A stretch of DNA of 47,809 bases from Verrucomicrobiia bacterium (lineage in GTDB: Bacteria; Verrucomicrobiota; Verrucomicrobiia; Verrucomicrobiales; Akkermansiaceae), in contig CANHQJ010000027.1 of the NCBI GenBank assembly GCA_947462875.1, forward strand, positions 1 through 47,809. Direction: 5' to 3'. Under the pieces are notes generated by a model. The model searched no databases, had not been told where the DNA came from, and worked only from the letters and a program-made list of their open reading frames with translations. Every line of letters begins with the position of its first letter. Position 1 is the first letter of the stretch. Shown piece by piece: positions 1-26,678 of the stretch. Both the position numbers and the translations under genes were made by a program.

Positions 1-1
1 T

Positions 2-148
2 CAGTGGACAGCCAGCGCGACGGGTCTGAGCACCGTGGCGACGGATGGGACGATCGATGCGGTGCGAGCGCCGTTCCCGATCACGGTGATGACGCCGAGT
101 GGTCCGAAGAAGCCGACATTCTTCCGCGTGGTGGTTTCTCAGCCCTAG
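2..148 (+). CDS. C-terminal end of a secreted protein (5' end outside window)
   Basis: An open frame enters from the left edge and runs 48 codons to a TAG stop at 146-148. The last residues read FFRVVVSQP. Endings of the form FFR-hydrophobic-V are common at the C-termini of large secreted repeat or LamG-type proteins in Verrucomicrobiota, so this is probably the tail of such a protein. No catalytic motif is visible in the part present and the rest of the gene lies outside the window. It is on the same strand as the PEP-CTERM protein 54 nt downstream. The assignment to a family is a guess from the tail alone. Confidence 0.5.
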   Translation, partial: QWTASATGLSTVATDGTIDAVRAPFPITVMTPSGPKKPTFFRVVVSQP

Positions 149-202
149 TGGCAATGATGGATTTTACATAGAGCGTATCCCAATCACGAACCATAGCAGC
201 GA

Positions 203-1516
203 ATGAAGTTTCCCGTAATGAGCATTTGTGGCAGCGCAGGCCTTGTCTTTGTTGGCAATGCCTCTGCTGAATTGATCTACAGCAATGTTCGTGATATCGC
301 CATTCCCGCCAATTTCGCAGGGGTCTATCTGGACGTGGAAACGGGGAATTGGAATACCAATATGAACAGTCCGCAGTCGGGTTGGGATATCAATCCGTTC
401 TTCGGTGGTTCGGCGATCTGGAATAGTCCCAACTTCCAGCCTGTTCGCAGTGCGACTGGAGCGATGGACGCGGTGGTGAATCTGGCAGAGGGCTCATTGG
501 TCACGAGCACGAGCACGTACTCGACTTTTGTGCAGGGAGCGGGAGGTGAAAATCCGGGTGGAGCGGGTTATGGAGTTTCGGATTCCCATGTTGGTTCGGG
601 CGTGGGGCAGTTCCAAGCGGGCCAAGAGGGTTATCTCGGTTTCCGCTTGAATGGCAGCAGCTACGGCTGGATGCGCGTGGTGTTCAACGGCAACACGGGA
701 GGTGCGCTGATCAAGGATTGGGCCTATGACACATCGGGAGCGTCCATCGCCGTGGGCAACGTCAAGCTCAACGGATCGGACATGGCCTTGGACAGTGGCA
801 ACAATAACGTCACCCTTGGTTCCGCGATCTCTGATTCGAATGGATCCACCAACGTCGTGAAAAGCGGCAATGGCACGACCAATCTGAATGGAGTCAATAC
901 CTATACAGGGACGACAACCGTCGAGGCGGGTCGTCTCAATGTGAACGGATCCATCCATGCGAGCAGTCAGGTGGTCGTTGAAGCAGGAGCCACTTTGGGG
1001 GGCGATGGCGTGATCAACGGGAATGTGACGCTTGATGGGACTCTGCGCGTCGGGCAAGGCGGATCGACGGATCGCCGCTTGGAAATCGGAGGCGTTCTGA
1101 GCACGGGCAGCGGATCATCGATGGTATTCCGCATCAGTGATGAATCCAGCTACGACCAGTTGGTGGTGGGGTCGGTGGATTTGAGTAACACGAATCTGGT
1201 GATTGAGGAATTGAGTGACACCTCTTGGAGCACGCTTGAGTATGGGGATGGAGCGAACTTTTTGACGAATGGAGCGACATACTACAAACTGATCGAGGGC
1301 ACGACGATGGGGATGTTCGCAAACGTGACGGACACGATGAGCGCTGCCGAGTTGGCCTACTACGGGCTGAGCGGCACGCAATACACGGTGATGTTGAACG
1401 ACCAGAAATTCTGGGTGGCACAGGGCTCGACGTATCTGGTGGCGATCCCCGAGCCGTCGCTGGGCCTGCTCGGCAGCCTGGGCGCGCTGCTGCTGCTGCT
1501 GCGACGCCGGCGCTGA
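203..1516 (+). CDS. PEP-CTERM-anchored secreted protein with autotransporter-associated beta-strand repeat
   Basis: Secreted surface protein of 437 residues. Residues 1-22 form a signal peptide (hydrophobic stretch ending NASA-E). Residues about 142-187 (GYLGFRLNGSSYGWMRV and following) match a beta-rich segment common in verrucomicrobial PEP-CTERM proteins. About 217-250 is one autotransporter-associated beta-strand repeat (VNTYTGTTTVEAGRL core), followed by a Gly/Val-rich extension. Residues 414-437 are a textbook PEP-CTERM sorting signal: PEP at 416-418, a Leu-rich helix, then four arginines. By family knowledge it would be cut and anchored by an exosortase, which is not in the window. The C-terminal Leu/Arg stretch is encoded by a run of ctg/cgc codons. 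Binding target unknown. It stands 224 nt upstream of the cytochrome-oxidoreductase cluster. Confidence 0.85.
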   Translation: MKFPVMSICGSAGLVFVGNASAELIYSNVRDIAIPANFAGVYLDVETGNWNTNMNSPQSGWDINPFFGGSAIWNSPNFQPVRSATGAMDAVVNLAEGSLVTSTSTYSTFVQGAGGENPGGAGYGVSDSHVGSGVGQFQAGQEGYLGFRLNGSSYGWMRVVFNGNTGGALIKDWAYDTSGASIAVGNVKLNGSDMALDSGNNNVTLGSAISDSNGSTNVVKSGNGTTNLNGVNTYTGTTTVEAGRLNVNGSIHASSQVVVEAGATLGGDGVINGNVTLDGTLRVGQGGSTDRRLEIGGVLSTGSGSSMVFRISDESSYDQLVVGSVDLSNTNLVIEELSDTSWSTLEYGDGANFLTNGATYYKLIEGTTMGMFANVTDTMSAAELAYYGLSGTQYTVMLNDQKFWVAQGSTYLVAIPEPSLGLLGSLGALLLLLRRRR

Positions 1517-1739
1517 GGACGGGGGTGCTTGAGCTGTCGCATCACCCATTTGTTGAGATCGCGGAAAGCGCGAATTATTTTTTTCTGTGTGTGCGGTCCT
1601 ACCCGGAAATGGGTAGGTTGGCGAATAAATATCAGTGAAATTTTGGCTATTTTTTGTGTTTTGCCGCCGTATAGGCTTTATCATTTGCACCATGTTCGCG
1701 GCGAGGCTATCGTGAACCGTCACTCCCAACCATCTTCAC

Positions 1740-4190
1740 ATGCGTCGTTCGAATTTCTTACCTTGTCTGGCTCTCTTGTCAACCGCTTGGGCGGCGGAAC
1801 CGTCGTTTCAGGTTCCCGCGAAGCCGGCGGCGCTGTTGCAAGAGTATTGTCTGGACTGCCACGAGGACGGCACCGAAAAGGGAGACATCCGTCTCGACAA
1901 TCTTGCCGAGATTCCTCTCCAGGCGCGGCTCGATCTGATGAACCGGGCCCTCGAGCAGGTCTATCTGAAACAGATGCCGCCCAAGAAAAAGGACCAACCA
2001 TCGGAGGAGGAGCGCAATGAGCTCGGCGGCTGGATTTGGAAGGAACTGCATACGCACAACGCCTCGAAGCTCGAGGAAAAGCTGCGTTATCCGTCGTATG
2101 GCAACTACATCGATCACGAGAAGCTTTTCAGCGGCAAAATCAAAGAACCCGCCTTCACTCCCGCCCGGCGCTGGCTTGTCAGCCCGATGATTTTCGATGA
2201 ACGCGTGCGTGACGTTTTTTCTCTCGAAGGCAGGGAGCGCAACATGCCGTTGGCGGGTGTCACGAATCCGTTCATCCTGCCCGATCACTCCGGCGTGCGC
2301 GATTATGACATCGGCCTGCTCGATGGCGGCAGCTTGCTCGTCATGCTCTCGAATGCCGAGTGGATCTCCACCAAACAAATCCGCCCCGCCCGTGTGAAAG
2401 CCGGAGAAATCGGTGCCAATGATTTTCCCGACCCGAAAGAGCGCTGGTCGCCGCGCCTCACGCCGCCGGAATTCGAGAACATCATCGTCAAAAAAACTCC
2501 GCCCCTTGATGAGGAAATCCGTGCTGCCATCGTCAAACAATTCGCTCTTGTGCTGCGCCGTCCACCCACGGAAATCGAGGCATCGAAGTACTTCGAACTA
2601 ACCAAATCCGCCATCGAACTTGCGGGTAATTCCGAGGGAGTGCGACAGATGCTGAAAGCTGTTTTGTTAGAGTCGGAATTTCTCTATCGTCAGGAATGGG
2701 GAGCGGGAAATGCCGATCAACACGGACGCAAAATGCTCGCTCCGCGCGAGGCAGCCTATGCCATTTCCTATGCCATGGGCGACAAAGGACCCGATGCCAA
2801 GCTACTCGAGGCTGCCGATCAGGGCCGGCTCAACACCCGTGAGGATTTCCTCCGCGAAGTCAATCGTTTGCTCGATGACAAGAGCTACTACTTCGGCAGC
2901 ATCGATCCCGCTTCGAATACCAGCAAGGTGGTATCGCAAACCGTAAGCCACCCGCGCATCATGCGCTTCTTCCGCGAATTTTTCGGTTATCCGAACGCGC
3001 CGAAAGTGTTCAAGGACATCGAACGCAGCCAGGGAGTCTATGCCAACGCGGACCGCGGCACGCTCGGCACTTCCGGTTTTCTTGTCGATGAAGCCGACAA
3101 GATTGTCGCGTGGTGCGTGGAAAAGGACCAAAACGTTTTTGAGACACTGCTCACCACCGATCAGTATTTCATGTTTCATAATGCCGAGAGCGTGAAAGCC
3201 CCGGCCACCATCGAAAAATGGCGCGGCGTGTGGGAAAAGCTCAAGGACAGCGAGTGGAGAACCGATCCGGAAAAAGTCATCCTTGCCAACCAGGAGATGC
3301 TCAAAAGTGCCCTTGGTATCGTTCCGGGTTTTGAAAACAAACCCGCAAACCACACCAACACCCTGACGCGCTGCATGAAGCATTTCGAGGCCACATTTGG
3401 CAAGGGTGCCACCCCGTTCGTCACCCTGCCCTGGGCGCATGGCAATACCTATTGGCACTCGCCGATTTACAATCTCCCCGAACCTTCCGGCAAGGGCGGC
3501 CAATACACTGATCCTCCGCTCGATTTCCCGATCCACCAACCGTTCAAAATCGCCCATCGCAAAGGCATCCTCACCCACCCGGCCTGGCTCATCGCCCACT
3601 CACAAAACACCGAGACCGATCCTGTCCGTCGCGGTCGCTGGGTGCGGGAAAAATTGTTAGCCGGTCGCGTGCCGGATGTTCCCATCACTGTCGATGCCGT
3701 GATTCCCGAAGACCATCACAAAACCCTGCGCACCCGGCTCGACGGCGTGACGCTGAAACAGGAATGCTGGAAGTGCCACGAGTACATGAATCCGTTGGGT
3801 TTGCCCTTCGAGATGTACGATGACTTCGGTCGTTTCCGCAAAGAGGAAGTCCTGCAGCATCCCGAGAACATCATCGGCAAGGATGGTCGCTGGAACAAGT
3901 ACAAGAGCCTGCCCATCGATACCCGGGGCACGCTTGACAGCACCGGCAATCCCTCGCTGGACGGCGAAGTTAGCGATGCTCTCGACATGATCGACCGCCT
4001 CGCCAAAGCCCCGCGCACCCGCCAGTCCATCATCCGCCATGCCTTCCGCTTCTACATGGGTCGCAACGAAATGCTCTCCGACGCGCAAACGATCATCGAT
4101 GCCGACAACGCCTATGTGAAAAGCAACGGCAGCTTCCGTGCGGTGATTGTTTCCCTGCTCACGTCCGATTCGTTTCTCTATCGGAAATAA
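1740..4190 (+). CDS. DUF1592/DUF1588 planctomycete-type c-type cytochrome protein
   Basis: Exported protein of 816 residues. A signal peptide ends near AWA-A (residue 19). A first haem c motif CLDCH lies at residues 37-41 (PSCyt1-like domain). The long middle carries the RFFREFFGY-type segment of DUF1592, and a second haem motif CWKCH lies at 676-680 inside the DUF1588 region (MNPLGLPFEMYDDFGRFR). A DUF1585-like tail ends the protein. Proteins of this build are widespread in Planctomycetes and Verrucomicrobia, usually next to a DUF1552 or DUF1501 protein; their chemistry is not established. The two CxxCH motifs argue for electron transfer in the periplasm. It begins the run 1740-8666 with the DUF1552, FAD oxidoreductase and esterase genes. 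No clear Shine-Dalgarno precedes the ATG; the start is set by the signal peptide. Confidence 0.88.
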   Translation: MRRSNFLPCLALLSTAWAAEPSFQVPAKPAALLQEYCLDCHEDGTEKGDIRLDNLAEIPLQARLDLMNRALEQVYLKQMPPKKKDQPSEEERNELGGWIWKELHTHNASKLEEKLRYPSYGNYIDHEKLFSGKIKEPAFTPARRWLVSPMIFDERVRDVFSLEGRERNMPLAGVTNPFILPDHSGVRDYDIGLLDGGSLLVMLSNAEWISTKQIRPARVKAGEIGANDFPDPKERWSPRLTPPEFENIIVKKTPPLDEEIRAAIVKQFALVLRRPPTEIEASKYFELTKSAIELAGNSEGVRQMLKAVLLESEFLYRQEWGAGNADQHGRKMLAPREAAYAISYAMGDKGPDAKLLEAADQGRLNTREDFLREVNRLLDDKSYYFGSIDPASNTSKVVSQTVSHPRIMRFFREFFGYPNAPKVFKDIERSQGVYANADRGTLGTSGFLVDEADKIVAWCVEKDQNVFETLLTTDQYFMFHNAESVKAPATIEKWRGVWEKLKDSEWRTDPEKVILANQEMLKSALGIVPGFENKPANHTNTLTRCMKHFEATFGKGATPFVTLPWAHGNTYWHSPIYNLPEPSGKGGQYTDPPLDFPIHQPFKIAHRKGILTHPAWLIAHSQNTETDPVRRGRWVREKLLAGRVPDVPITVDAVIPEDHHKTLRTRLDGVTLKQECWKCHEYMNPLGLPFEMYDDFGRFRKEEVLQHPENIIGKDGRWNKYKSLPIDTRGTLDSTGNPSLDGEVSDALDMIDRLAKAPRTRQSIIRHAFRFYMGRNEMLSDAQTIIDADNAYVKSNGSFRAVIVSLLTSDSFLYRK

Positions 4191-4307
4191 AGGAGCGCGG
4201 ACTTGAGTCGCCTTCTTCTTCCCTGTTATCCGCACCACCATCCATCCCCGAAACCGATTCATCCTTGCATCTTACGCCATATCAACTAACCTAACCACAC
4301 ACTGATC

Positions 4308-5720
4308 ATGAACAACCGACGTGAATTCCTCCGCAATGCCTTTCTCGCGATGGGCGGGCTCTCGCTTCCCGGCATGATGCCCGGTCTCTCGGCCACGCCG
4401 TTGATCGGATCTTCCGCCCGCCCGCCGATGCGTTTCATCTTCATGCATCGCGGCAACGGTCTTTTCCCCAAAGTCCTCGTGCCTCCCACCCTCGGCAAGG
4501 AGGAATTGGACAAGGAAAAACAAAATCTGCCCTACGAGGTGGATCTCTCCAAACACAGCCTGCCGGAGTGGATGAGCCCGCTGGAGGCACACAAGGACCA
4601 CCTCACCATCGTCCAGGGCCTTTCCGGAAAAATGTGCACCACCGGCCACCACTCCTGGTGTTCATCGCTCGGTGTCTACAAGGCGAACGAACGCCTCAGC
4701 TCGATCAAATGGGCCACCGTCGATTTCGAACTGGCGAAGCTTTTCCCGTCGCCGATGGAGCACATCGAGCTCGCCTGTTTCCCCACCGATGGCGGCAATG
4801 CGCGCGGTGGTCTAGACGGCATCGCCAAGGGCTTCTCCGCCCGCGGTCCGCAGCAACCGAACTACGCCTTCGGCGGTCCTGGCATCGCCGTGGATGAAAT
4901 TTTCAAATCCGTTTCCGCTGATAAAAACGATCAGGTTCGTTATCAGCTCGAACGGAAAGTGTTGGAGTTCGCCGCAGGCAATCAAACGGAACTCGCCCGT
5001 CACCTCGCCGGCATCGAGAAAAAGAAAATCGGCAATTATGCCAGCTCCATCGATGAGATCCGCGAGCGTGATCGCAAGATCGACCAGATGGCCGATGTCG
5101 TGCGCAAGCACGTGCCCAAGCTGGAAAGCAAGTATCTCTCGAACGACATGGACACCTACACGCGTCAGGTCGGTCACACCGAGGTCCTGCTCTCCGCCTT
5201 GATCTCCGGTCTCACCAACGTCGTCGCTTTCACTGTCGATGAGCTCGGCCACCACTACACCGGCATCCCCGGCATCGAGGGCGAAAAGGTCAACATGCAC
5301 GACATCGGCCACGGCAAGCCCGTGAAAAACCTCAGCGCCGAGGAAATCCGCAAGCGCACCGAGAACCACCACATGGAACTGATGAATCGCATCGTCACCC
5401 GCCTCAAGAGCGTGCCGGAAGGCGATGGCACGATGTTTGACAACACGATGATCTTCTACTTCCCCGACTCCGGTGAAACACATCACAGCCATGGCCTTGA
5501 GTTTCCTTTCGTGGTCATGTCGGGTCGCAACAGCAAGATGAACCTGGGCAACCGCTACATCCGCCTGCCGTATTGGGGCAAGGAAGGGCACAAGACGCTG
5601 GGCAATTTCTACACCACCCTGCTCAACGCCTACGGCAATCCGATCAAGCACTTCGGCGACCTCGATCCCGGCCTCAAGTTCGACCAACTCGGTCCGATTA
5701 AAGAGTTTTTGCTCGCATGA
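4308..5720 (+). CDS. DUF1552 domain-containing secreted protein (Tat-type signal)
   Basis: Protein of 470 residues starting with a twin-arginine signal (NRREFLRNA, residues 3-11, then a Gly/Leu-rich core and cleavage near SAT). Tat export suggests it folds, perhaps with a cofactor, before export. The rest matches DUF1552, a family fused or paired with DUF1592-type cytochromes in Planctomycetes, Verrucomicrobia and Myxococcota and related to the DUF1501/sulfatase-like alkaline phosphatase fold. Residues about 380-400 (FYFPDSGETHHSHG) are a His-rich motif that could bind metal. Function is unknown. It follows the cytochrome gene by 117 nt and its stop overlaps the start of the FAD oxidoreductase by 4 nt (ATGA), which indicates translational coupling. 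Confidence 0.87.
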   Translation: MNNRREFLRNAFLAMGGLSLPGMMPGLSATPLIGSSARPPMRFIFMHRGNGLFPKVLVPPTLGKEELDKEKQNLPYEVDLSKHSLPEWMSPLEAHKDHLTIVQGLSGKMCTTGHHSWCSSLGVYKANERLSSIKWATVDFELAKLFPSPMEHIELACFPTDGGNARGGLDGIAKGFSARGPQQPNYAFGGPGIAVDEIFKSVSADKNDQVRYQLERKVLEFAAGNQTELARHLAGIEKKKIGNYASSIDEIRERDRKIDQMADVVRKHVPKLESKYLSNDMDTYTRQVGHTEVLLSALISGLTNVVAFTVDELGHHYTGIPGIEGEKVNMHDIGHGKPVKNLSAEEIRKRTENHHMELMNRIVTRLKSVPEGDGTMFDNTMIFYFPDSGETHHSHGLEFPFVVMSGRNSKMNLGNRYIRLPYWGKEGHKTLGNFYTTLLNAYGNPIKHFGDLDPGLKFDQLGPIKEFLLA

Positions 5721-20846: not shown

Positions 20847-21047
20847 ATGAATAACATCCACTCATCACTTGCCGAACTATGGCGGCATCCACATTCCGAC
20901 ATTCCAAAATTCTGCCTCTTTCAGAATTGGAGCGATGATGCTACTACTAAACATGGCATAGACAAGGATCGGATGCAATCTTTCGAGAATAACGCCAACT
21001 TCGCCGCCGGTGGCTATGCCATCGTCCATACTGCTAGTAATTTGTGA
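20847..21047 (+). CDS. possible small leader ORF coupled to the histidine kinase
   Basis: An ORF of 66 codons beginning MNNIHSSLAELWRHPH and ending HTASNL. It has no recognised domain, signal peptide or membrane segment. Its base composition is lower in GC than its neighbours. The reason to take it seriously is its end: its TGA (21045-21047) overlaps the GTG start of the kinase (21044-21046) as GTGA, the arrangement expected for translational coupling. The kinase has no obvious ribosome binding site of its own. It may equally be an accidental frame in a promoter region, so confidence is low. Confidence 0.3.
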   Translation: MNNIHSSLAELWRHPHSDIPKFCLFQNWSDDATTKHGIDKDRMQSFENNANFAAGGYAIVHTASNL

Positions 21048-23683
21048 AAAAAACCGAATCCATCAATGAACGGAACCGCCTCGCGGCGCTCGAGCGCTAT
21101 GGCATCTTCGATACACCGCCGGAGCCGGAGTTCGATGATTTCACGCGACTCGCATCACTGATTTGCCAGACACCCATCGCCCTCATCTCGCTGGTGGATG
21201 AATCGCGTCAGTGGTTCAAAAGTCGGGTGGGTGTCGAAGTTTGTGAGACCGACCGCAGCATATCGATCTGCCAGCATGCCATCCAAGGATCGGGATTGTT
21301 GGAAATTCCCGATGCGCGTCTGGATGAACGCTTTTGCGCCAACCCGCTGGTCACCGGGGAGCCATATGTTCGCTTCTACGCCGGGGCTCCTCTCACTACC
21401 CCGGATGGATATCGAATCGGCACGCTTTGCGTGATTGATCAAGAGCCCCGCCAGCTTACCGTGGAGCAGCGGGACGGGCTCTTGCGCCTGGCGCGCCAGG
21501 TCATGCGGCAGATGGAATCTCGCAGGGAGCATATCAAGTTGATCCAGAGCTCCGAGGCGTTGCGGGAGAGCAACGAGCGCACCGAGCAGATCATCGACTC
21601 TGCACTGGATGCCGTGGTCACCATGGACATGGACGGGCTCATCATCAGTTGGAACCCTCAAGCGGAAGTGATTTTCGGATGGAGTGCTGGCGAAGTCATC
21701 GGCAGGAAAATGTCGGAAGTGATCATACCTCCGTCATATCGTGAGGCGCATGAACGCGGCCACCGTCACTTGATGGAGACGGGCGAGGTGAGTGTGCTGA
21801 ATCGAAGGATCGAGTTGAGCGCCCTGCGCCGCGACGGGGCTGAGTTCCCGGTTGAGTTGACGATTGCCAAGGTCATGGTGGGCGGGAAGGCTCAGTTCAG
21901 TGCGTTCATCCGTGATCTTTCTGAGCTGAAGGAGTCTGAGTCCAAACTTGCTCAGGCCAGCGATTTGCTCCGCGCGGTGGGGAGGTTACAATCCAGCTAT
22001 ATCAGCAGAGGCAAGATTGAGGCAGCGGAGACTTTCGAAGACCTGCTCCAGCTCCTGCTGAAGTTCACGGGCAGTGAATACGGCTTTGTAGCCGAGGTTC
22101 TCCGCGATGATGAGGGGCAGCCTTACCTCAAGACCCAGGCGATCACCAATATCTCTTGGAACGACGAGATGTCGGCTTTTTATGAGAAACACAAGGCGAA
22201 GGGCTTGGAGTTCCGCAACCTCAAGACCCTGTTCGGAGCTGCCCTTGTCACAGGTGAAACGGTGATTTCTAATTCGCCCGCTGCCGACCCCCGCCGGGGC
22301 GGCCTGCCTCCTGGTCATCCCCCGATGAACTCGTTCCTCGGTGTTCCCATCAAACGGGGCGGTGAAATGATCGCCATGGTTGGCGTGTCCAATCGGCCGA
22401 GAGGTTACGATCTTGCCTTGGTCGAGGAAATCGAACCGCTTCTCTCGACGTATGCCAGCATCATTCAGGGCTTTCAGTTCGCGAAGCAAAAAGAGGCCGA
22501 TCAACAACGGATTCTGGCGTTGAATTTGGATCTGGAAGTCCGGGCGGGCGAGTTGGCGGCCGCGTTAGAGGAGAAAAGCCGTGAGAAGCGTGAGCGCCTC
22601 AAGGCCCTGCAAGAGCACTCCGCCTCCTTGGAGCGGCGGGTCGCCGAGCGCACCGCGAAGCTAGAACATTCGAAGCGGCAGTTCCAAGACCTGTTCGAGT
22701 TTGCTCCTGACGCGTTGGTGATGACAGATCCGGTGGGAATTATTCAAATGGCCAATCATCAGGCCGAGCGAATGTTTGGCTGGACCTCCGTGGAGCTGCA
22801 GGGGCAATCATTGGAAGTTCTGTTGCCCACAAGGCTTCTGGCAGGAGGCCGTATGGAGCATAGCCGTTTGCTCGAGGCGCGAGAGAAACCCCGGCTTCCC
22901 GGCAGGCGCAAGGATGGCACGGAATTCCCATTGGAGTTGAGCCTCAGCCCTGTGCAAACGGAAGACGGCATGCTGTTCGCTGCCGCCATGCGCGATGTTT
23001 CCGAACGCATTCGGCTGGAACAAGAAGTGGCGCGAATCAGTTCCCACGAACAGGAGCGTTTTGCTCATGAGTTGCACGATCATTTAGGCGCGTATCTGGC
23101 CGGCATCGCGTTCCGTTTCAAGTCGCTGGCGGAGACTTTGGAACGCCGCGCCATCCCCGAGGCGTCCACTGCCCAGCAACTGGTAGGGCAGGTCAATGAC
23201 GGCATTGATCTGGTCCGGAATTTCGCCCGCCTGCTCGCTCCGGTAGATATCGAAGGCGGCGGCCTCCCGGCTGGATTATCCCAGCTTGGCAGGGAAATGG
23301 AAACAGCCTTTCGCATTCAGTGCCGGGTGGAGGTGGCGACGGAGCTTCCTCCGCTCACTTCGGAGCAAAGCATGCAACTTTACCGCATCGCCCAAGAGGC
23401 TACGCGCAACGCCATCCAGCATGGCAAGGCCCGGCTCGTCACCATTTCCGTATCACGCGAGACGCATTGCTTGAAAATGACAATTTCTAATGACGGCAAA
23501 CCCTGGAGTCCGACTCCGGAGTGTGCCGGTGGAATGGGCTTGCGCATCATGCACCATCGCGCCGCCAACATCGGCGGCACCCTCACCATGCCATCCGATT
23601 CCGCCGGTAGCACCTCCGTCATCTGCCTCTTGCCTCTTTGTCTTGCCGCCCCCGCAAACGGAAAACCATCATCCAACCCATGA
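21044..23683 (+). CDS. GAF-PAS-GAF-PAS sensor histidine kinase (HisKA_3 / NarX-like)
   Basis: Soluble sensor kinase of 879 residues. Order: GAF (about 25-160, starting with the typical NRLAALERYGIFDTPPE), PAS (about 181-295), second GAF (about 326-478), coiled coil (480-545), second PAS (546-655), HisKA_3 dimerisation domain with ELHDHLGAY and phospho-acceptor H678, then HATPase_c (about 769-865, N-box QEATRNAIQHG, G-box GGMGLRIMHHR). No transmembrane segment, so it reads a cytoplasmic signal; the ligand is unknown. GTG at 21044 is the only possible start before the first GAF motif, because an in-frame TAA lies at 21038. Its stop overlaps the next gene by 4 nt (ATGA), so the response regulator at 23680 is its cognate partner. 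Confidence 0.93.
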   Translation: MKKTESINERNRLAALERYGIFDTPPEPEFDDFTRLASLICQTPIALISLVDESRQWFKSRVGVEVCETDRSISICQHAIQGSGLLEIPDARLDERFCANPLVTGEPYVRFYAGAPLTTPDGYRIGTLCVIDQEPRQLTVEQRDGLLRLARQVMRQMESRREHIKLIQSSEALRESNERTEQIIDSALDAVVTMDMDGLIISWNPQAEVIFGWSAGEVIGRKMSEVIIPPSYREAHERGHRHLMETGEVSVLNRRIELSALRRDGAEFPVELTIAKVMVGGKAQFSAFIRDLSELKESESKLAQASDLLRAVGRLQSSYISRGKIEAAETFEDLLQLLLKFTGSEYGFVAEVLRDDEGQPYLKTQAITNISWNDEMSAFYEKHKAKGLEFRNLKTLFGAALVTGETVISNSPAADPRRGGLPPGHPPMNSFLGVPIKRGGEMIAMVGVSNRPRGYDLALVEEIEPLLSTYASIIQGFQFAKQKEADQQRILALNLDLEVRAGELAAALEEKSREKRERLKALQEHSASLERRVAERTAKLEHSKRQFQDLFEFAPDALVMTDPVGIIQMANHQAERMFGWTSVELQGQSLEVLLPTRLLAGGRMEHSRLLEAREKPRLPGRRKDGTEFPLELSLSPVQTEDGMLFAAAMRDVSERIRLEQEVARISSHEQERFAHELHDHLGAYLAGIAFRFKSLAETLERRAIPEASTAQQLVGQVNDGIDLVRNFARLLAPVDIEGGGLPAGLSQLGREMETAFRIQCRVEVATELPPLTSEQSMQLYRIAQEATRNAIQHGKARLVTISVSRETHCLKMTISNDGKPWSPTPECAGGMGLRIMHHRAANIGGTLTMPSDSAGSTSVICLLPLCLAAPANGKPSSNP

Positions 23684-24330
23684 AAAAAACTCGCGTTCTG
23701 ATCGTCGAAGACCACCCCTTTTTTCGCAGCGGTCTCGCCCAGTGGCTTAACCAACAGGAAACCGTGACTTGCTGCGGCGAGGCGGGATCGGTGCGTGAAG
23801 CCCGGCTGGCGGTCGAGGCCTCCCGCCCCGAGGTGATCCTCATGGATCTTCGCCTGGGTGACGGAGAAGGCCTCGATCTGATAGCGGAAATCACCCAGAC
23901 GCATCCGTTCATTCGGATGATCGCCCTATCGCAGTTTGACGAGGACGTCTACGCCCACCGCGCCCTGAAGGCCGGTGCGCGCGGCTACCTGATGAAGTCC
24001 GAGGCGACAGAGGCTGTGCTCACCGCCATCGAGACCGTGATGAGCGGGGGGCTCCACCTCAGTCCCCGAATGTCGGTCAGGCTCCTGCAGAACATTTTTC
24101 CTGATCCCGCATCCCGGACGCTTGATCTAACAAAGCTGACCGATCGCGAGTTGCAGGTATTCCAATTGTTGGGTGGCGGCATGAGCACCATCGAGATCGG
24201 CAAGCACCTCAATCTCAGCCCCAAAACGATCGAGACGTATCGCGAGCATCTGAAGGACAAGCTCGCCCTCGCGGATTCTCCCGCGCTGTTGCGTGCCGCA
24301 ACGCAATGGGTGGAGTCCGGACGCCTATGA
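23680..24330 (+). CDS. NarL/FixJ-family response regulator (copy 1, tail lost)
   Basis: Regulator of 216 residues. The receiver domain (1-120) has the acidic pair E10/D11, phospho-acceptor D56 (VILMDLRLGDGEG) and K106. A LuxR-type HTH covers about 150-212 (LTDRELQVFQLLGGGMSTIEIGKHL). I chose the ATG at 23680, which overlaps the kinase stop (ATGA); the upstream TTG only adds the kinase's tail read in another frame. It is about 80% identical to the regulator at 25460. It stops directly after ESGRL, where copy 2 continues into a zinc-ribbon tail, and its 3' flank still resembles the DNA encoding that tail. This indicates loss of the tail after duplication. Confidence 0.93.
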   Translation: MKKTRVLIVEDHPFFRSGLAQWLNQQETVTCCGEAGSVREARLAVEASRPEVILMDLRLGDGEGLDLIAEITQTHPFIRMIALSQFDEDVYAHRALKAGARGYLMKSEATEAVLTAIETVMSGGLHLSPRMSVRLLQNIFPDPASRTLDLTKLTDRELQVFQLLGGGMSTIEIGKHLNLSPKTIETYREHLKDKLALADSPALLRAATQWVESGRL

Positions 24331-24440
24331 ACAAAGGTATCTGCCGCTTCTGATCGAAGCGTTAGAACGCGTCGCAGCTCCATAAGGGAGAACCTTAAAC
24401 GGTTTCAGGGTGAAACCCCGATGCGAACTTTGAGAAGTGG
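24331..24440 (+). pseudogene. remnant of the zinc-ribbon tail downstream of response regulator 1
   Basis: Non-coding DNA that aligns with the end of response regulator 2. CTGCCGC near 24343 matches CTGCCGC near 26178, which encodes the second Cys pair; further on both have taaggg, aacc and tta in order, and TTTCAGGGTGAAACCCCGATGCG near 24402 matches TTTCAGGGTTAAACCCCGATGCG near 26240 with one substitution. The part encoding the first CxxCxGxG motif is missing, and a TGA now follows the last shared Leu codon. This is read directly from the two sequences; the direction (loss here rather than gain there) is inferred. Confidence 0.6.
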
Positions 24441-24464: not shown

Positions 24465-24551
24465 AACTATGCTTTGCTAATGTCATTCACCAAGGGCATT
24501 TCAGCAGCGGCGTAATTTTGCTCGCGTTTCTTGATTCTAACTTGCCCTCTC

Positions 24552-25298
24552 ATGCCTTCCAATTCCAAAAAGAAATTTCGCGCAGTTCGCTCCACGGGGA
24601 GACCCAAGCAATATGAAGCAGAAGAAGAGTTCGATCAGCCCATCGAAGCTACGGGTTATATCGAGTTGCCACCGAAAGAAAGGAAAAACGTCTATCCTAT
24701 CGCGAATGATAGCTCTGTTTTCGTCTTGCCGATGGAGCCTCCTCTGCATGCGATCCGTCGTGCCATCAGAGAGCTTGAAAGCGGATCTCTGGACGAGCTT
24801 GTGATCAACAAGCTGATTTCGCTAGACCGCAAATCCGCGGAGTTCCGGGAGGAGTATGTTAGGATCCGCGCTCTATCACTTGTAAGAACCAGGCCGTCGT
24901 CTCCATCCTTTAACGAAAGCTACATAATAATGGGTGGAGCTGAGGCGCAATCCCGAGAGGAGCAGGAAGAAATATCGTATCAAAATCCATGGTCCGTCAA
25001 CTCGCTCTGGGATCTATGGCGCTTTTTCGGGCCAAGTTTGACGCTCGTGATCGTCCTGCAGCTCGTCTTCAGTTTGAAGTTAAGCGCGTTGTTGGGCAAA
25101 CTTCACATTCCTCTTGGAAATTTTCCGTCCAGCATGATCGCCTTGATCATCGCTTCACTCTCACTATACACCAGTTATCTTGTCCTGAACGGATGCAAGG
25201 GCCGGGAATACAATCAATGCAGCCCGCGGCTTGTGGGAATCGGGGTTGTCAGTGCGGTTTTGGCCGTCTTCACCTTTCTCCTGGTAAAGTTCCTATGA
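24552..25298 (+). CDS. hypothetical membrane protein between the two response regulators
   Basis: Protein of 248 residues that I do not recognise. The start is taken at ATG 24552, with a Lys/Arg-rich beginning MPSNSKKKFRAVR; an upstream in-frame TTG at 24531 would add seven residues. Residues 1-155 are polar and cytoplasmic-looking, with a predicted helical stretch around 70-110 (HAIRRAIRELESGSLDELVI). The C-terminal third has three hydrophobic helices at about 160-182, 193-214 and 226-248. The gene is lower in GC than its neighbours and sits alone between the duplicated regulators, with about 220 nt before it and 160 nt after it. It could be an insertion into a former tandem pair, or a membrane partner of the signalling system. 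Confidence 0.65.
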   Translation: MPSNSKKKFRAVRSTGRPKQYEAEEEFDQPIEATGYIELPPKERKNVYPIANDSSVFVLPMEPPLHAIRRAIRELESGSLDELVINKLISLDRKSAEFREEYVRIRALSLVRTRPSSPSFNESYIIMGGAEAQSREEQEEISYQNPWSVNSLWDLWRFFGPSLTLVIVLQLVFSLKLSALLGKLHIPLGNFPSSMIALIIASLSLYTSYLVLNGCKGREYNQCSPRLVGIGVVSAVLAVFTFLLVKFL

Positions 25299-25459: not shown

Positions 25460-26263
25460 ATGAAAAAAATCCGCGTTCTCATCGTCGAAGACCACCCCTT
25501 CTTTCGCAGCGGCCTCGCCCAATGGCTCAACCAACAGCAAGGAGTGACTTGCTGCGGCGAGGCCGGATCGGTGCGTGAAGCCCGGATGGCGGTGGCAAAA
25601 TTGCAGTACGACGTGATTCTGATGGATCTGCGCCTGGGCGATGGCGAGGGACTCGAACTGATTTCGGAGGTGATACGAGAGCATCCGCAAATTCGGATCA
25701 TCGCCCTGTCGCAGTTTGACGAAGACACTTACGCCCACCGCGCCCTGAAGGCCGGCGCCCGCGGCTACCTGATGAAGTCCGAGGCCACCGAAGCCGTGCT
25801 TATCGCCATTGAGACCGTGATGAGAGGGGATATCCACCTCAGTCCTCGCATAGCGGCCAAGCTTCTGCAGAACATTTTCCCTGATCCCGCCTCCCGAACG
25901 CGAGATCTGGCAAAACTGACGGATCGCGAACTTCAGGTATTCCAATTGCTGGGTGGCGGCCTGAGCACCATCGATATCGGCAAGCACCTGAAAATCAGCC
26001 CCAAGACCGTGGAGACCTATCGCGAGCATTTGAAAGACAAGCTCGCACTCGCGGATGCTGCTGAGTTATTACGTGCGGCAACGGTTTGGGTGGAATCCGG
26101 CCGCCTAGATCTGGTGTATGAGACGTGCCATACCTGCAAAGGGAAAGGTAAGGATACAGGGAAGCGCAATAGCCCCTGCCGCAGTTGCAACGGATCGGGT
26201 AACGCGCCATCCGCCCGTAAGGGCAACCCTTACTCATTTTCAGGGTTAAACCCCGATGCGTGA
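25460..26263 (+). CDS. NarL/FixJ-family response regulator with DnaJ-type zinc-ribbon tail (copy 2)
   Basis: Regulator of 267 residues, about 80% identical to copy 1 over the first 216. The receiver holds D56 (VILMDLRLGDGEG) and the LuxR HTH spans about 150-212. After ESGRL it continues for 51 residues with two CxxCxGxG motifs, CHTCKGKG (223-230) and CRSCNGSG (240-247), which is the exact pattern of the DnaJ cysteine-rich zinc-binding domain. Four cysteines would bind one zinc. This tail is not part of the usual NarL architecture. It might bind an unfolded or partner protein, or sense zinc or redox state; these are inferences. No kinase gene adjoins it, so the kinase at 21044 probably phosphorylates both regulators. 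Confidence 0.9.
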   Translation: MKKIRVLIVEDHPFFRSGLAQWLNQQQGVTCCGEAGSVREARMAVAKLQYDVILMDLRLGDGEGLELISEVIREHPQIRIIALSQFDEDTYAHRALKAGARGYLMKSEATEAVLIAIETVMRGDIHLSPRIAAKLLQNIFPDPASRTRDLAKLTDRELQVFQLLGGGLSTIDIGKHLKISPKTVETYREHLKDKLALADAAELLRAATVWVESGRLDLVYETCHTCKGKGKDTGKRNSPCRSCNGSGNAPSARKGNPYSFSGLNPDA

Positions 26264-26393
26264 TCCTGCAAAGTGATGTAGTTGTATTCCCGTTGCTCAC
26301 AACAACGCTTTACGAAAGTTACCTACCGCTGGCGTCTCCGCTCGCAGTAAATCTTTCCGGCAGTTGTGCGTTAGACAGATAAAACATATTTTG

Positions 26394-26479
26394 GAGAGTT
26401 GAAGTCGCTAAGCAGGATAAAATTCCTGAGACCCTGGGGGGGGGATCTGAATAGGACCTGCTTGGCGACTTCAACTCTC
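26394..26479. repeat. 23-bp inverted repeat with G9 tract in the loop
   Basis: Arms at 26394-26416 (GAGAGTTGAAGTCGCTAAGC...) and 26457-26479 are complementary over 23 bp with a single mismatch, which would be a G-U pair in RNA. The 40-nt loop includes nine G (26436-26444) and a TTCCTGAGACC stretch. The surrounding 415-nt gap (26264-26678) has no credible gene; it also contains three copies of a 9-mer catctcatc/t at 26652-26678 just beyond the cutA stop. The hairpin could be a structured small RNA, the two ends of a miniature mobile element, or a strong bidirectional barrier between the convergent regulator and cutA genes. Confidence 0.7.
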
Positions 26480-26678
26480 TTCCCACAGCAGCTTTCCCCC
26501 GCAGCGCGCTGTGAGCCATATACACGATAAATTGAGTCGTGCGATTTTCAAAGATTGTGGAGAACAAGACCGCAAATGGCTTCTCCTCCGGCAATCTTCG
26601 GAGCGGATCTTCTGGATCGGGATGCGGAGGCTGGCGAATCAGGGCGGCATCCATCTCATCCATCTCATCCATCTCATT

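Follow-up and report, generated by a model that had tools for sequence, protein, structure and literature searches.

A pair of CXXCXGXG motifs behind the DNA-binding domain of a verrucomicrobial response regulator: a probable accidental extension through a short insertion

How does a response regulator of the LuxR type come to carry, behind its DNA-binding domain, a pair of cysteine motifs that resemble the repeats of DnaJ, and does this pair have a function? The question is raised by an open reading frame of 267 amino acids, running from ATG to TGA on the forward strand, within a 47,809-nucleotide stretch of DNA (hereafter, the window) from an Akkermansiaceae bacterium whose genome comprises 3.95 Mb in 39 contigs. 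A sequence-only reading of this gene had singled out the tail and suggested that it could render the regulator zinc- or redox-responsive. The explanation that we favor with reasonable confidence is that some 50-55 bases, gained by insertion or replacement, produced a lineage-restricted and probably dispensable four-cysteine tail, that is, an accidental extension; this confidence attaches to the insertion as such and stayed the same after the claim of a frame shift, considered below, had been dropped.

The regulator in question, denoted B here, contains a receiver domain (residues 6-117, E 8e-25) and a GerE helix-turn-helix (HTH) domain (residues 152-206, E 7e-14), both of which score above the cut-offs of the respective families (87.6 bits against 30.2 for PF00072 and 51.6 bits against 23.5 for PF00196); in 12 aligned rows of the regulator group, D56 is nearly invariant and K106 is invariant. 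The order of elements on the forward strand is a histidine kinase, a paralogous regulator (A), the conserved DNA element EL1, a gene for a 255-residue protein, regulator B with its tail and the stem-loop element EL2 (Table 1). The kinase, in which HisKA_3 (PF07730, 27.5 bits against a cut-off of 24) is accompanied by HATPase_c, is the probable partner of the regulators. The stop codon of paralogue A lies at the exact point where the tail of B begins. The comparison of B with A over codons 83-216 yields dN of 0.09 and dS of 0.56, which indicates, as judged from codon changes, that the core of regulator B is under purifying selection. The 255-residue protein has no match in Pfam and NCBIfam, and a homolog is found at the equivalent position in one of the related loci, L039; in the same locus (positions 2592-2879), a decayed copy of regulator A sits between the kinase and the gene for the 255-residue protein, so the A/B duplication probably predates the split from the L039 lineage. 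The close relatives found are metagenome-assembled genomes labelled Akkermansia, Akkermansiaceae, Verrucomicrobiaceae or Verrucomicrobiae.

Table 1. Features of the locus, with coordinates in the window
Feature	Coordinates	Strand	Basis or remark
GAF-PAS-GAF-PAS-HisKA_3-HATPase histidine kinase	21044..23683	+	domain search
Paralogous response regulator A, tailless, ends WVESGRL then TGA	23680..24330	+	82% identical over 218 residues
EL1 copy after paralogue A	24380..24425	+	sequence match
255-aa protein between A and B	24531..25298	+	start codon uncertain
Response regulator B: receiver, LuxR/GerE HTH and 51-residue tail	25460..26263	+	ORF and Pfam
C-terminal tail, residues 217-267	26108..26260	+	begins where paralogue A stops
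CHTCKGKG-(9)-CRSCNGSG, like two neighbouring DnaJ repeats	26126..26200	+	profile and structure alignments
EL1, conserved DNA element read as tail end	26215..26260	+	non-coding after stop in A and most relatives
EL2, covarying stem-loop with G9 run, downstream of tail gene	26393..26480	+	covariation

The 51-residue tail, with CHTCKGKG at residues 223-230 and CRSCNGSG at residues 240-247, is real, as the sequence-only reading had it, and so is its likeness to the DnaJ repeat unit: it aligns without gaps with two adjacent repeats in the structures of E. coli DnaJ (1exk, E 4.8e-4) and DNAJA3 (2ctt, E 2.9e-4). A DNA pattern of two CxxCxGxG units 9 residues apart, which was chosen after the tail had been seen, has a single occurrence in the window, and 100 shuffles give none. 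In the accessible portions of open PMC papers, the combination of a response regulator with CXXCXGXG brings up only work on DnaJ and DksA, and stop readthrough in response regulators only unrelated work.

The tail is indeed unusual within its regulator group. The regulator as query finds matches in 56 of 57 genomes, its own included, and among the matches listed, only B and a homolog in one other genome (G008, locus L043) pass residue 245 without a stop. Of 14 C-termini that were read, the decayed copy in L039 was set aside; among the remaining 13 genes (A and B included), 11 end 0-12 residues past the common end, and two carry the tail, which extends beyond that end by 51 residues in B and by 49 in G008. 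The tail as query gives a match at E <=1 in five of 10 genomes of the genus, with values better than 0.01 only in its own genome (E 3e-25) and in G008 (E 1e-8); in a set of 386 order genomes taken from a larger group, these two (E 7e-29 and 1e-11) are followed by a best value of 3e-4. With the HTH and tail together as query against 384 genomes of the class, B and G008 are, among the matches listed, the only ones that cross both motifs without a stop. A tail match beside the decayed regulator copy of L039 was considered as a third tail and rejected, the match being to EL1 only.

In G008, the homologous tail begins behind the same residue and its frame is open; a one-base difference shifts the frame at its very end. 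The second motif, CTSCNGSG, is retained, with CxSCNGSGNA common to both genomes; the first motif reads CPSSRGAC, so that its second cysteine is replaced by serine (C-x-x-C to C-x-x-S). Hence the conservation of the four cysteines in homologous regulators, on which the sequence-only reading had staked its proposal, fails in the sole tail-bearing homolog found. The regulator copy in G008 is cut off by the contig start; at a completeness of 98%, the genome yields no match to the kinase at E 1e-40 (nor do G004, G006 and G009), and a search for nitric oxide synthase (NOS) finds none there. Because both kinase match and NOS are missing, the G008 copy may be a relic of a decaying system. In L043 (positions 1-4549), an amidohydrolase-like gene, named by eye, lies 3' of the regulator with the tail, and in L214 this gene follows NOS and EL1; it is as if NOS and the kinase had been deleted in G008 between copies of EL1.

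The origin of the tail is illuminated by its C-terminal part. The last ~15 residues are a translation of EL1, which in paralogue A and most relatives is non-coding and lies behind the stop codon; a 47-base match with 91% identity links the end of the tail gene to the non-coding EL1 of G003. The element reads AAGGG..CCCTT, then GGGT...ACCCC, and occurs after regulator genes and, in L040, L041 and L214, also behind NOS genes (L039 5038; L041 5024 and 6732; L040 6442; L214 1500-1532; a putative further copy at G003:C281 6521-6548). With up to three mismatches allowed, it is found in its own genome only after A and B, and a longer pattern is found in five of the 10 genomes of the genus. The two predicted hairpins of EL1 show little covariation, with one of 10 pairs changed on both sides; EL1 is a possible operator of the regulator.

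Between the common end of the regulators and the EL1 anchor lie 129 bases in B and 128 in G008, against 66-87 in ten other sequences, one of which is the decayed copy; this comparison leaves out L040, where the hit is to a wrong portion of EL1, and L014, which has no EL1. Relatives also differ from the window in the sequence between the end of the HTH and EL1. An insertion or replacement in this interval is clear: judging from the compared loci, ~50-55 bases are extra there, and no in-frame stop remains. The excess in B, and with it the net change of frame, varies with the reference, being 53 bases relative to L039 and L212, 54 relative to L041 and 55 relative to paralogue A, and the claim that a frame shift carried translation past the old stop was dropped.

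No donor of the cysteine-encoding piece was found in the regulator's own genome, the 386 genomes of the order, phage records or PHROGs. A six-frame search of its own genome, the tail aside, gives nothing better than E 0.76, and a frame of dnaJ size (381 residues, contig C31) appears at E 4.2. Among the order genomes, 56 have a match at E <=0.01, of which two are the tails themselves; the other 54, at E 3e-4 or worse, are mostly frames of about 370-490 residues that, by their length and motif, we take for DnaJ. At the DNA level, with two candidates scored per genome in the rows shown, only G008 is matched across the cysteine part, the other matches being to EL1 or to four pieces of 24-42 bases (L216-L219); as donors, these pieces were rejected, since the longer frames that contain them do not, by eye, look like zinc proteins. 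Phage records contain two DnaJ matches to the tail at E 0.3, and the weak matches among PHROGs (best E 0.0024) are mostly to families of unknown function.

The substitutions between B and G008 are distributed differently in the tail and the core. Across 36 tail codons, 7, 12 and 6 changes fall on the first, second and third codon positions, with dN of 0.29 and dS of 0.25; across core codons 83-216, the respective counts are 23, 10 and 49, with dN of 0.12 and dS of 0.79, and the share of third-position changes differs between tail and core (Fisher P = 0.0026). In this comparison, which with two sequences is a weak test, the tail protein thus shows no visible purifying selection; in the half of the tail with motif 2 (14 codons), the changes number 1, 3 and 2, with dN of 0.14 and dS of 0.22. 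The divergence of the tail, 25 of 108 bases, is lower than the synonymous divergence of the core, which speaks against the favored explanation. The tail in the window retains all eight motif residues and the DnaJ spacing, and because random substitution seldom keeps the motif residues (in ~10% of trials with 12 changes and in 1% with 25), selection on the tail is possible if most of the change fell on the window's lineage.

These observations suggest the following course of events. The old stop codon would have been removed or bypassed, so that EL1 is translated as well and the frame closes at the following TGA; the extra piece may derive from DnaJ-like or anti-TRAP-like zinc-knuckle coding DNA or may be partly the product of chance. 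Regulator B would still be phosphorylated by the kinase and bind DNA through its HTH domain as the tailless A does, with the tail as a loose appendage that is presumably dispensable and drifting. If the tail is made in this organism, its four cysteines could bind one zinc ion, with no evolved signalling role; such putative zinc binding is possible.

The principal alternative, which we consider rather unlikely, is that the tail is a working zinc knuckle of the anti-TRAP or DnaJ kind, which makes B zinc- or redox-responsive or lets it bind a partner, with B specialized against A. The intact four cysteines with DnaJ spacing, the retention of motif 2 in both tails, the constrained core of B and the presence of a tailless sister gene, which leaves one copy free to specialize, all fit this possibility; it has to contend with the loss of motif 1 in the sole tail-bearing homolog found, the lack of visible purifying selection on the tail and the absence of the tail from 11 of the 13 genes read. 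Moreover, AlphaFold finds no confident fold for the tail, which argues only weakly against a working module, as few rows reach the tail and no metal is modelled: in the full-length model (12 rows, two of them through the tail), pLDDT is below 50 in nearly all of the tail, and residues 200-267 modelled alone have a mean pLDDT of 42.5. The zinc- or redox-responsive role put forward in the sequence-only reading thus did not hold up, given the cysteine lost in G008, the prevalence of tailless genes, the selection result and the identity of the tail end with EL1.

Alternatively, the tail could have been functional in an ancestor and been lost or be decaying in other lineages, with the window keeping the last intact copy seen. 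The core of the G008 regulator groups with that of the tailless L041 in three trees (support 97, 95 and 84), and the core of B clusters with the tailless L039 at support 78 in one tree, the remaining two leaving its position unresolved; because the two tail-bearing cores do not group together, the tail and the core have, according to these trees, different histories through recombination, or else the tail was lost several times, a point that also weighs against the favored explanation. A tail common to two such cores, a motif pair too complete for chance and a G008 copy that may be decaying would all agree with an ancestral module; the required loss in every other sampled lineage, several of which have a similar short C-terminus and spacing, makes this scenario unlikely as well.

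A third possibility invokes the association of the regulators with NOS. The NOS family (PF02898) is represented in eight of the nine genomes with a regulator match at E <=1e-70 compared to seven of 48 others (Fisher P = 3e-5, relatedness not corrected). In G002, G003, G005 and G007, and also in L040 and L041, no more than about 1.5 kb separates the NOS gene from the regulator, and the kinase-regulator pair is close to it; in G056 the distance is about 7 kb, and in the window's genome, G001 and G050 the two genes are on different contigs. The accessible part of a review (PMC9500659) contains no NOS-linked two-component system in Verrucomicrobia. Conceivably, the tail is a newly captured, functional zinc or redox knuckle that splits the roles of A and B in such a system, with B answering thiol oxidation or nitric oxide, but we regard this as decidedly improbable. 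Finally, an assembly or sequencing error, which the sequence-only reading had named as grounds for refutation and to which the dissimilarity from relatives between the HTH end and EL1 might point, is extremely improbable because a homologous tail, likewise with its frame open, is attached at the equivalent residue in G008 and the change involves some 50 bases, not a one-base slip.

Downstream of the regulators lies EL2, a 28-pair stem-loop with the G run in its loop, which was compared in seven sequences (the window, L039, L041, L042, L045, L012 and L013), in all of them downstream of the regulator. Ten pairs are changed on both sides, against 0-1 in controls with the partner slid. In a permissive comparison with Rfam, the window stretch has no match and L039 has a match at chance level only; EL2 could be either a DNA hairpin or a structured RNA of a new kind.

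An accidental extension of this kind implies that a regulator can acquire a motif-bearing tail, and a non-coding element can become part of a protein, through a small insertion next to a stop codon; it also cautions that a motif in one genome is no ground for reading function. If, on the other hand, the tail binds zinc and alters regulation, a new accessory domain would have been born beside a DNA-binding domain.

Compared to known systems, regulator B shares the receiver and the GerE HTH with NarL/FixJ (LuxR-type) regulators, from which it differs in its 51-residue, four-cysteine tail behind the HTH. The tail matches repeats 1 and 2 of the DnaJ cysteine-rich domain, including the 9-residue spacing, whereas that domain has four repeats and the tail, with its two, scores below the curated cut-off of the family (PF00684 DnaJ_CXXCXGXG, tail alone, E 1e-5, 26.2 bits against 32.7). 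In DnaJ, zinc is held by repeats 1 and 4 and by repeats 2 and 3, so a DnaJ zinc site would not be restored by repeats 1 and 2 on their own. The pair of motifs is also reminiscent of anti-TRAP, with scores far under the cut-offs (PF15777, E 0.0053, 17.2 bits against 32; NF058604, RtpA, E 3.9e-4, 20.5 bits against 65). Anti-TRAP is a free 53-residue oligomer, whereas the tail is an extension of regulator B. The accessible part of PMC2896485 describes anti-TRAP as a small protein in which two CXXCXGXG motifs bind zinc.
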